Shown piece after piece: positions 20,077 to 22,973 of a DNA stretch of 64,000 nucleotides. Position 1 is the stretch's first letter. Every line of letters begins with the position of its first letter. Source of the DNA: Domibacillus sp. DTU_2020_1001157_1_SI_ALB_TIR_016 (lineage in GTDB: Bacteria; Bacillota; Bacilli; Bacillales; Domibacillaceae). The position numbers were made by a program, and so were the translations under genes. The notes below the pieces were generated by a model that had not been told where the DNA came from, did no database searches, and saw only the letters and a program-made list of their open reading frames with translations. The DNA lies in NCBI RefSeq assembly GCF_032341995.1, contig NZ_CP135439.1, positions 1,302,001 through 1,366,000 on the forward strand. The letters run 5' to 3'.

Positions 20077-20895
20077 ATGTCTGCTACGTCCGCTAAGGTT
20101 ATGTCACTGAACGTCGACCAGTTAAACAAGGACATCAGCATTTTCCCGCAGGTTTTCCCGATCACGCCGGAAATGAACATTACACACAAAGGCGTTTCCC
20201 GCCTGGTTATGATTGACCGATATTCATTTAAAGATACTGAAAAAATTACCCTGTCTGAAGGCGACTTTGTTGTTTTAACAATTAAAGAAGATCCTAAATT
20301 CCCAGCTCGTGGGACAGGCTTTGTCGTATCGCTCGACCGAGAAGCGAAAAGAGCATCGATTTTGATTGATGAAGAATACCGCAGTGCGATCGATGATCCA
20401 AAAGAAGCAGAAACAGGTATTATTCACCGCAGTCTTGATGTGATTGAAAAACCGCTTGAAGTTTTTTACGAGCAGATTGCTAAGCGCAATGCAGCAGGGC
20501 TTTCATCTGTTGAAAAAACAGACGAAAAGAAAAAAGAATGGTTCGATAAATTTTATAACGAACTTGTAAGCTTAAACTTTATTCCGGCGGGCCGTGTGTT
20601 ATACGGGGCGGGGGCAGACACAGACGTGACGTATTTTAACTGTTATGTGATGCCATTTGTAGCTGATTCACGTGAAGGCATATCTGAGCATCGTAAGCAG
20701 GTAATGGAAATTATGAGCCGCGGCGGCGGTGTTGGAACGAACGGCTCCACTCTTCGTCCGCGCAATACCCTTGCCCGCGGCGTAAACGGTAAGTCATCAG
20801 GGTCAGTTTCGTGGCTTGATGATATTGCCAAGCTGACACATCTTGTTGAGCAGGGCGGATCGCGCAGAGGTGCTCAAATGATTATGCTGGCGGAT
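20077..20895 (+). CDS. nrdJ: class II (B12) ribonucleotide reductase, exon 1
   Basis: First 273 codons of adenosylcobalamin-dependent ribonucleoside-diphosphate reductase, which makes dNDPs from NDPs using a cobalamin-derived thiyl radical. ATG 20077 follows AAAAGGAG. The N-terminal domain leads into the barrel with Cys189 (TYFNCYVMPF, one of the reducing cysteine pair), GGGVGTNGSTLRPRN and GSRRGAQMIMLAD. Translation would stop at TAA 20896 without splicing. The missing sequence resumes exactly in frame at 21231 (WHPDIVEF), giving an 853-residue protein of normal length once the intron at 20896-21230 is removed. Confidence 0.93.
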
Positions 20896-21230
20896 TAATG
20901 TTTTTATGCTAGTCCGCGCCGTTCAGACAATGAACGGCAAGTAAACTGGGTGAATTGCAGGAAAGTCCTTAGAGGCGTTCAAGCTACAACGTGACTGGAA
21001 ACGGTGAGCGTGAAATGCTTAAAAATTGAACGCATTGGATAATCTGCAGCCAAGCACCGTTTAAGGTGAAGGTTCAACGACTATCGAAAACACTAACGTG
21101 GAAGTAGAGTAGAAAAGCATAATGCTTTTCGAAGCGCCCAGCCCCTAACAGGTGATGCTGAGGGTGATGATATAGTCTATCCCGTCTGCAAAAGCAGAGT
21201 TAAAGTATCCTGAAAAGGACGGTATAATAG
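20896..21230 (+). ncRNA. self-splicing group I intron in nrdJ
   Basis: A 335-nt intervening sequence without a coding region of note. Core elements are present in order: P AATTGCAGGAAA (20953), Q AATCTGCAGC (21041), R GTTCAACGACTA (21072) and S GATGATATAGTC (21166). The guide GTCCGC (20912-20917) pairs with exon end GCGGAT (20890-20895) to form P1 with the required U-G pair at the 5' splice site. The preceding ATGCTA (20906-20911) pairs with TGGCAT at the start of exon 2 to form P10. The last base is G. Hairpins GTTCA-GACAA-TGAAC (P2), GAAAAGCA-TAA-TGCTTTTC (P8-like) and CTGC-AAAA-GCAG (P9) are visible. No homing endonuclease gene. Subgroup not assigned with certainty. Confidence 0.95.
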
Positions 21231-22973
21231 TGGCATCCTGACATTGTAGAATTTATTATTTCAAAAATGCAAAACCCGCGTATTTTGCGCTACCTTCTTG
21301 AAAATACAGAAGACGAGCAAATCCAAAAAGCGGCAAAGGATAAATTAAACTTTAAGCCGCTGACTGAGCGCGAAGAGCAAATGTACCAGGGTGTGGTGAA
21401 TTACAAAAACATCCCGGGCTATGGCGGCTTCAGTCCTGAAATTATCAAAGAAGCGGAAGAGAAACTTCGCACCGGCGGAACATACAGCGTTCATAACGCT
21501 GAGTTTTTAACAGGTGCCAATATTTCAATCTGCCTGACGAATGAATTTATGGAGGCAGTGGAAAAAGATGCGGATTATGAGCTTCGTTTTCCGGCTGTAG
21601 AAACGTACGACAAAGAAGAAATGGCCTATTACAACGAAAATTGGCACAAAGTCGGCGATGTCCGTGAATGGGAGCGCGAGGGACATAAAGTTCGCACGTA
21701 CCGCAAAATTAAAGCGCGCGAGCTATGGAATTTAATCAATGTCTGTGCAACCTATTCAGCAGAGCCAGGCATTTTCTTTATCGACAATGCCAATGAAATG
21801 ACCAATGCAAAAGCGTATGGCCAGCAGGTTGTTGCAACAAATCCATGTGGTGAGCAGCCCCTTGCACCATTTTCAGTCTGCAACTTAGCAGCCGTTAACC
21901 TTGCTGAAATGGCGGACAAGGATTCGAAAACGGTGAACTTTGATAAGTTAAAACAAACGGTTCGCACAGGTGTCCGTATGCAGGATAACGTGATCGATGC
22001 GACACCGTATTTCCTTGAGGAAAACAAAAAACAGGCGCTCGGTGAACGGCGGGTTGGCCTTGGCGTAATGGGACTAGCGGACCTGCTTATTTATTGCGAA
22101 AAAGAATATGGTTCTCCAGAAGGAAATGCCCTTGTTGACCAGGTGTTCGAAGCGATTGCTGTAACAGCGTACGAAACGTCTGTAGAGCTGGCAAAAGAAA
22201 AAGGCAGTTTCCCATTCCTTCAGGGAGAAACACAAGGTGAAACCAATCGTCTTCGTGAGGCATTTATTGATACAGGCTACATGAAAAAAATGCCGGATCA
22301 TGTACGGGAAGCTATTCTTCAAAATGGTATTCGCAATTCGCATTTGTTAACTGTAGCACCAACGGGCTCTACTGGAACGATGGTGGGTGTATCAACGGGA
22401 TTGGAGCCATATTTCTCCTTTACGTACTACCGCAGCGGACGTCTTGGTAAATTTATTGAGGTCAAAGCGGATATTGTAAAAGACTATCTGGAGCGCAATC
22501 CGGAAGCAGATCCGGATCAATTACCGGATTACTTTGTAACGGCGATGAGCCTGGCACCAGAGGCGCATGCAGATGTTCAGTGTGTGATTCAACGGTGGAT
22601 TGACAGCTCTATCTCCAAAACCGTAAACGCACCGCGCGGCTATACAGTTGAGCAGGTAGAAAGCGTGTATGAGCGTCTTTACAAAGGCGGGGCAAAAGGC
22701 GGCACGGTTTATGTAGATGGAAGCCGTGATTCCCAGGTTCTTACGCTGAAAGCAGAAGAAAACACGTGGGATGAAGAAGAGAAAACAGAACCGAAACAAC
22801 ATGAAAACCACGTTGTTTTAATTGATACGATTCAGGATCTTCGTTCAACGAATGTGACAATTGGCAGTGAAGTCGGCAATACTTGCCCGGTCTGCCGCAA
22901 AGGAACAGTAGAAGAGCTCGGCGGCTGCAACACATGTACGAACTGCGGCGCCCAGCTGAAATGTGGATTATAA
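21231..22973 (+). CDS. nrdJ: class II (B12) ribonucleotide reductase, exon 2
   Basis: Codons 274-853 of NrdJ, starting TGG CAT CCT directly after the intron G. It holds the active-site NPCGEQPLAPFSVCNL segment (thiyl-radical Cys, Glu and partner Cys), MQDNVIDATPYF, PTGSTGTMVGVSTGLEP, and a Cys-rich C-terminal tail CPVCRKGTVEELGGCNTC-TNCGAQLKC that rereduces the active site. The frame is intact to the TAA at 22971-22973 and a strong terminator follows. Everything indicates a functional gene interrupted only by the intron. Confidence 0.95.
   Translation, partial: WHPDIVEFIISKMQNPRILRYLLENTEDEQIQKAAKDKLNFKPLTEREEQMYQGVVNYKNIPGYGGFSPEIIKEAEEKLRTGGTYSVHNAEFLTGANISICLTNEFMEAVEKDADYELRFPAVETYDKEEMAYYNENWHKVGDVREWEREGHKVRTYRKIKARELWNLINVCATYSAEPGIFFIDNANEMTNAKAYGQQVVATNPCGEQPLAPFSVCNLAAVNLAEMADKDSKTVNFDKLKQTVRTGVRMQDNVIDATPYFLEENKKQALGERRVGLGVMGLADLLIYCEKEYGSPEGNALVDQVFEAIAVTAYETSVELAKEKGSFPFLQGETQGETNRLREAFIDTGYMKKMPDHVREAILQNGIRNSHLLTVAPTGSTGTMVGVSTGLEPYFSFTYYRSGRLGKFIEVKADIVKDYLERNPEADPDQLPDYFVTAMSLAPEAHADVQCVIQRWIDSSISKTVNAPRGYTVEQVESVYERLYKGGAKGGTVYVDGSRDSQVLTLKAEENTWDEEEKTEPKQHENHVVLIDTIQDLRSTNVTIGSEVGNTCPVCRKGTVEELGGCNTCTNCGAQLKCGL

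Follow-up and report, generated by a model that had tools for sequence, protein, structure and literature searches.

What is the 335-nt stretch that interrupts nrdJ, the class II ribonucleotide reductase gene, in Domibacillus sp. DTU_2020_1001157_1_SI_ALB_TIR_016, how did it come to lie there, and does the host depend on its removal to make dNTPs? We addressed these questions in a window of 64,000 nucleotides (contig NZ_CP135439.1, positions 1,302,001 to 1,366,000), the whole stretch of DNA analyzed here, in which coordinates count from the first letter. We put at about 93% the probability that the stretch is a group I intron at a nrdJ homing site which has lost its own HNH-type homing endonuclease, and whose ORF-bearing ancestor would have spread by homing. 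Elements of this kind are known, and the window intron is a further member at site 273 (named for the nrdJ codon that precedes it).

A group I intron splits nrdJ between codons 273 and 274

The nrdJ gene starts with ATG at 20077, and 20895 is the last base of its codon 273 (GAT); the insert that follows (20896–21230) opens with U, in TAA, and closes with G, after which the frame resumes as TGG CAT CCT GAC. Removal of 20896–21230 leaves one open frame of 853 amino acids. The NCBIfam profile NF005991 (vitamin B12-dependent ribonucleotide reductase) matches on both sides of the insert, with 519 bits for the 5′ part (profile positions 3–273) and 1153 bits for the 3′ part (274–858), to be read against a cut-off of 854 that is set for the whole protein. 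The first-pass annotation had placed a 335-nt insert between codons 273 and 274 of a class II nrdJ, and the reading frame and the profile matches bear out both the exact coordinates and the identity of the gene. The insertion point also appears to fall in a conserved motif, in line with the first-pass annotation. Among the matches listed, the named nrdJ loci nearest to that of the window are from Domibacillus.

The insert had been called a group I intron, with a covariance-model search proposed as a check. At gathering thresholds, cmscan of the window returns a single match, RF00028 at 20895–21197, which spans the full model with 68.8 bits (E 2.4e-15, window), above the gathering score of 50 bits. 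The same intron is the one RF00028 match in the 5.1-Mb host genome at E 0.001, and no further RF00028 introns were found in that genome at this threshold. None of 100 shuffles folds as well as the intron (z −3.9).

A secondary structure from P2 to P9 plus P10, hand-written for the window, was tested on an alignment (A1) that runs from the guide to the 3′ exon and holds 27 introns at site 273, 26 of them distinct. The resulting features are listed below with their evidence; "double changes" are pairs with changes on both sides, and percentages refer to paired cells of A1.

20077–20895 (+): 5′ exon of nrdJ, codons 1–273, ending GCG GAT; reading frame, NF005991 positions 3–273
20890–20895 (+): P1 5′ strand in the exon, GCGGAU, with U at the 5′ splice site; exon codon association
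20896–21230 (+): group I intron, 335 nt, starts UAA and ends G; RF00028 68.8 bits, same-site relatives
20906–20911 (+): P10 5′ strand AUGCUA, candidate partner UGGCAU at 21231–21236; sequence, partly conserved
20906–20944 (+): tail of the presumably lost endonuclease ORF, 12 codons plus stop, also guide and P2; same closing peptide in ORF-bearing relatives
20912–20917 (+): internal guide sequence, P1 3′ strand GUCCGC; 27/27 site-273 introns
20918–20938 (+): P2 hairpin; 5/8 pairs with double changes
20946–20952 (+): P3 5′ strand, partner 21135–21141; 2/7 pairs with double changes, 100% paired
20955–20960 (+): P4 5′ strand, partner 21044–21049; 2/6 pairs with double changes, 100% paired
20965–21040 (+): P5 and extending hairpins; P5 79% paired, first extension stem 7/7 pairs with double changes, next short stem 53% paired
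21050–21072 (+): P6 and P6a; 100% paired, P6a 2/4 pairs with double changes, P6 invariant
21079–21083 (+): P7 5′ strand GACUA, partner UAGUC at 21173–21177, the guanosine-binding helix; invariant in 26 distinct sequences
21091–21130 (+): two hairpins between the P7 5′ strand and the P3 3′ strand, presumably of P7.1/P7.2 type; 3/3 and 5/8 pairs with double changes, counted in the roughly half of A1 sequences that have the region
21135–21141 (+): P3 3′ strand; A1 alignment
21143–21164 (+): P8 hairpin; 98% paired
21173–21177 (+): P7 3′ strand; A1 alignment
21182–21222 (+): P9 with two hairpins; 100%, 90% and 100% paired
21230 (+): terminal G of the intron; G in 27/27
21231–22973 (+): 3′ exon of nrdJ, codons 274–853 plus stop; reading frame, NF005991

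Over the whole structure 94.1% of 2139 cells are paired, compared to 32–41% when partners are slid by 1–3 columns, a control that favors the tested structure, which was written from the window's own sequence. Double changes occur in 38 of the 89 pairs, against a shuffle mean of 18.9 and with 0 of 500 shuffles reaching 38; kinship among the introns inflates such counts, and the effect is large. P7 and P6 are invariant in A1 and contribute no covariation signal. This covariation across same-site introns supports a predicted P3–P9 core in which P7 crosses P3. From the extra hairpins between P7 and P3, we take the intron to be of IA type.

Splice sites and predicted splicing

In P1, the exon end GCGGAU pairs with the guide GUCCGC and places a U-G pair at the splice site. 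The guide (GTCCGC in the DNA) is present in 27/27 introns at site 273, and the exon codons that it pairs with, GCG GAT, occur in 26/26 distinct intron-bearing alleles compared to 7/70 distinct intron-free ones (Fisher p 2e-17, which assumes independence among genomes that are related; the count is restricted to alleles matching the pattern Ile-Met-Leu-Ala-Asp). All eight Ala-Asp codon pairs occur among the intron-free alleles. The P1 helix proposed in the first-pass annotation is thus upheld by guide and exon alike, as are both splice sites, with U before the 5′ site and G at the intron end in all 27 same-site introns. Its observation that the intron opens with UAA likewise extends to an in-frame stop as first codon in 27/27 (TAA 23, TGA 3, TAG 1).

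P10, which had been said to fix the 3′ splice site, is the weakest of the elements claimed: six pairs are possible in the window, while across A1 72% of cells pair, with the two innermost pairs constant. In part of A1 the AUGC block is shifted by two bases away from the guide, and counting by columns (72%) may therefore underrate the pairing of this candidate helix.

Given this architecture, the intron RNA would fold after transcription and the exon end GCGGAU would dock on the guide GUCCGC; guanosine would bind in P7, and the cut would fall after U20895. U20895 would then be joined to U21231, the intron leaving as RNA and the 853-aa reductase being restored. The UAA at intron base 1 would halt ribosomes ahead of the ribozyme.

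An endonuclease ORF present, partial or absent at the same site

In 8 of the 27 site-273 loci (L005, L076, L090, L156, L160, L164, L166, and L169), which represent seven distinct strains, L076 and L166 being by sequence the same strain, an ORF of about 260 aa lies complete or almost complete in the P1 loop; three of the 19 loci without a full ORF keep its last 19–24 codons. The Pfam HNH profile scores just above cut-off in both of the ORF proteins tested, and the protein collection contains 62 relatives of the ORF protein, with identities of 49% or above across no less than 71% of the query. Same-site relatives of the window intron thus encode a putative HNH-type homing endonuclease. The introns of Robertmurraya massiliosenegalensis (L090), Bacillus sp. 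ISL-45 (L076) and genome G002 (L005) share the site, the guide and the core with the window intron, but differ in their length of 1133–1146 nt and their P1-loop ORF of 260–278 aa, which the window intron appears to have lost.

Wherever the ORF is present, its last codons overlap the guide and P2 in an identical manner. No long ORF, and with it no homing endonuclease, was found inside the window's 335-nt intron, so that the description of the intron as ORF-less holds for the endonuclease itself, but a 12-codon frame plus stop (MLVRAVQTMNGK-stop) remains and equals the ORF tail of the relatives. In ORF-less introns this peptide is partly forced by RNA constraints, so its presence in the window does not by itself prove that an ORF was lost. 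We infer that a deletion in the P1 loop removed the ORF and spared its last codons, which the ribozyme would need as guide and P2.

A search of 21 intron-bearing genomes for the ORF found six full copies, always at the intron, and one remnant, also at the intron; in the remaining 14, the window's own genome included, a homologue was not found. The short remnants in G004 and G005 went undetected in this search, and very short remnants elsewhere would escape it as well. On the intron tree a minimum of seven ORF-state changes is required, a count that fits either direction; losses only would take nine, therefore ORF gains are possible.

Probable transfer among Bacillaceae and a tract of silent exon changes

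The window and genome G012 both carry the site-273 intron, with core identity of 98.7%. Genome G016, with 97.2–97.6% identity over this region, lacks an insert at 273 and carries a 1249-nt insert at codon 265, and Domibacillus robiginosus WS 4628, 84–86% identical, has an nrdJ without insert.

The window differs from G016 at 100 exon nucleotides, which amount to 13 amino acid changes and are thus mostly silent, and 13 of the 100 are concentrated in a single 60-nt segment around the sites (reached in 0 of 20,000 permutations). Similarly, 27 exon changes are common to the window and G012 versus G016 and D. robiginosus; eight of them lie within 43 nt (exon 785–827), a clustering reached in 2 of 20,000 permutations, and change no amino acid. 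Exon positions 777–901 are identical in the window and G012. These clustered silent changes are, on sequence comparison, the pattern that co-conversion would leave; selection for P1 or P10 pairing could account for two of the eight (815, 824).

Vertical inheritance alone is disfavored both by presence and absence of the intron among near relatives and by trees, since neither the intron nor the exon alignment accepts the tree of the other (AU 1e-6 and 5e-5, in a test that compares whole topologies, weak nodes included). Raw identity of introns versus exons was not used as proof of transfer because third codon positions of the exons are near saturation outside Domibacillus (38–55% identity). We infer that the ORF-bearing form moved between Bacillaceae by homing, and that the window's lineage received the intron from a donor, along with a short stretch of the donor's exon.

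Alternative explanations

The order of events at site 273 could be the reverse, with an ORF-less intron as the ancestral state and the HNH-type ORF invading the P1 loop later in some lineages. Such a history accommodates the 19 of 27 loci without a full ORF, three of them with a remnant, and the number of changes counted on the tree does not separate gain from loss. It fits less well with the existence of three partial ORFs, with sister introns that have and lack the ORF while being only about 1–3% apart in the tree (REN10/G002, L085/L090, L169/L170), or with the uniform overlap of the ORF's end with guide and P2 in every intron that carries the ORF, and we regard it as unlikely, though the most serious of the competing accounts. 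Loss of the ORF remains our preferred order, and it leads to the question of whether the intron can still move. The exon tract of the window's lineage resembles a conversion scar and hence points to transfer at some time, which would suit an intron still driven in trans by an endonuclease encoded elsewhere; however, the same search that recovered full ORFs in six genomes found no homologue of the site-273 ORF in 14 of 21, including the window's own, and we give continuing mobility in trans little credence. Because its ORF is lost and no endonuclease homologue was found elsewhere in the genome, in a search that covered homologues of the site-273 ORF, the window intron is probably immobile by itself. 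The first-pass annotation had left open immobility or mobilization in trans, and it is the former that this favors.

A more radical alternative is that the ribozyme has decayed and no longer splices, which would make nrdJ a pseudogene and leave the class I enzyme to make all dNTPs. The endonuclease is gone, and nrdE and nrdF are encoded, so nrdJ could in principle be dispensed with. Nevertheless, the core helices are intact in A1, the exons stay open over 853 codons with 13 amino acid changes per 100 nucleotide differences from G016, and the exon codons of P1 are kept, all of which make decay very improbable.

Does dNTP synthesis depend on splicing?

It had been concluded at first that dNTP synthesis depends on splicing. 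This does not stand as a general statement, as the window's genome also encodes the class I reductase, with nrdE and nrdF adjoining each other and a cobalamin riboswitch (106 bits) upstream of nrdE at L021:545–714 (G000:C2 535008–535177); a class III reductase had no match in this genome. For Bacillus methanolicus, PMC4342826 describes a cobalamin riboswitch upstream of class I genes and compares it to Streptomyces. When B12 is available, dNTP supply may fall to the intron-bearing nrdJ, and because of the riboswitch upstream of nrdE the dependence of dNTP synthesis on splicing is at most conditional.

Among 22 genomes tested, the class I small subunit has a match in 21; G185 has none, and the match in G376 reaches 67 bits only. 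Neither G185 nor G376 yielded a class III match or a large-subunit match outside the interrupted nrdJ. The G185 genome is one contig of 3.62 Mb, 99% complete, and its nrdJ (L189 = G185:C1:2256500–2265500; L155) contains a 1186-nt insert at 263 and, after an exon of 30 nt, an intron of 332 nt at 273. The intron at 273 passes the RF00028 cut-off and the insert at 263 does not; the latter has an open stretch of 305 residues that by eye is LAGLIDADG endonuclease-like. Strict dependence on splicing may hold in G185, in which the sole detected reductase is an nrdJ with two inserts; if it is indeed the sole reductase, ribozyme splicing would be essential for growth.

A broader and speculative proposal, which we think rather improbable, is that in some Bacillaceae the ribozyme is obligatory for dNTPs and that sites 263, 265, and 273 are the ground of a contest in which a co-converted exon recodes a neighbor's target. 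If this were true, no dNTPs would be made without splicing in strains that have NrdJ as their one reductase, or when class I is switched off by cobalamin via the riboswitch, and splicing efficiency (guanosine, temperature, translation) could be a control point.

Related introns in other genes, phages and plasmids

To judge by its title, a paper by Meng et al. in 2007 reportedly concerned a bacterial ribonucleotide reductase gene with a group I intron that has an insertion sequence element. For Bacilli, the part of PMC3984707 available to us names flagellin, recA, nrdE, and nrdF as hosts of group I introns, and not nrdJ. The recA, nrdE, and nrdF introns of Bacillus and those of phages are likewise group I introns in DNA-metabolism genes, some of them phage-like (same part of PMC3984707), but the window intron differs from the recA, nrdE, and nrdF introns described there in its host gene, class II nrdJ, and its site. 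We found no description of group I introns in nrdJ of Bacillaceae in the open-access literature, as far as the sources were accessible. Introns in nrdJ may have been noticed before, since RNRdb, in the portion of PMC2795772 consulted, puts the number of curated reductase group I introns at over 100 and does not name them.

The top DNA match among 50,697 phage records is Bacillus phage vB_BpuM-BpSp (KT895374), with 76% identity over 165 nt; about half of the window intron aligns, and the phage's intron core sits in a B-family DNA polymerase gene. Plasmids gave four matches, at 72–78% identity over 39% of the intron, one of them under a phage tail gene and three unannotated. A search of viral contigs for the endonuclease, with patterns able to reach only close relatives, produced three distant fragments of 36–41% identity over part of the protein and hence no phage donor.

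Inserts at five nrdJ sites across Bacillaceae

In related Bacillaceae, nrdJ carries inserts at five sites (263, 265, 273, 480, and 652), four of which have RF00028 matches, and this wider distribution is more interesting than the single intron. A DNA search with the intron at E ≤ 1e-25 matches 25 of 397 genomes of the host's order, 19 of them at codon 273 of nrdJ and the other 6 at codon 265. Among 80 named loci, the best of 557 relatives of the nrdJ N-terminal part, 24 have at least one insert, with 28 inserts in all (8 at 273, 2 at 265, 12 at 480, and 6 at 652; L127 ends before 652). An insert at 263 or 265 lowers the rank of a gene in this selection, hence these figures are not frequencies. 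At site 273 the ORF is present, a remnant or gone, which makes gain, loss and transfer readable from close relatives.

At the gathering threshold, RF00028 is matched at site 273 by 10/10 loci tested besides the window, at 263 by L005 and not by L189, at 265 by L064 and not by L066 or L007 (47.5 bits, just below the cut-off), and at 652 by L061, L078, and L097 and not by L092 or L133. Ten site-480 loci gave no match at gathering, and relaxing the threshold to E 0.1 in three of these brought up none either. The site-480 inserts follow U and end in G, and by eye have R- and S-like elements with another P7 (L055:7441–8655, L062:7441–8647, L065:7441–7719, L076:8574–8822, L099:1596–1857, and others). 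The longer inserts contain ORFs for proteins of about 310 aa, and the two proteins checked have no Pfam match. A 183-nt insert at this site (L162:2434–2616) is unlike the others, and two different inserts may thus use site 480.

A search with the N-terminal half of the protein found that 98 of the best 120 of 1089 matches end at or just after codons 263–265 or 273, a count that leaves out one entry running on out of frame; candidates were limited to 1.75 times the query length, which excluded full-length NrdJ, so the result says nothing on frequency. Introns may explain such split NrdJ entries in protein databases.

We also considered whether introns at neighboring sites are mutually exclusive and rejected this as a rule, as 9 of the 27 site-273 loci also have an insert at 263 or 265. 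Inserts at 263 and 273 are separated by the 10-codon exon RGAQMIMLAD in L005, L155, L157, L159, L162, L163, L168, and L170, and in L158 an 8-codon exon lies between inserts at 265 and 273. The site-265 insert L066:5639–6882 contains a 296-aa ORF with PF04480 (DUF559) above and Vsr below cut-off, a nuclease type that differs from that of site 273.

An nrdJ on a viral contig (L150:6526–7452) has an in-frame insert near codon 189, in which the intein splicing domain PF14890 scores below cut-off. Glycine riboswitches, of which none was reported in the window at gathering thresholds, are found about 6 kb upstream of nrdJ in L061:57–232, L062:58–233, L063:60–235, L133:338–426, and others.
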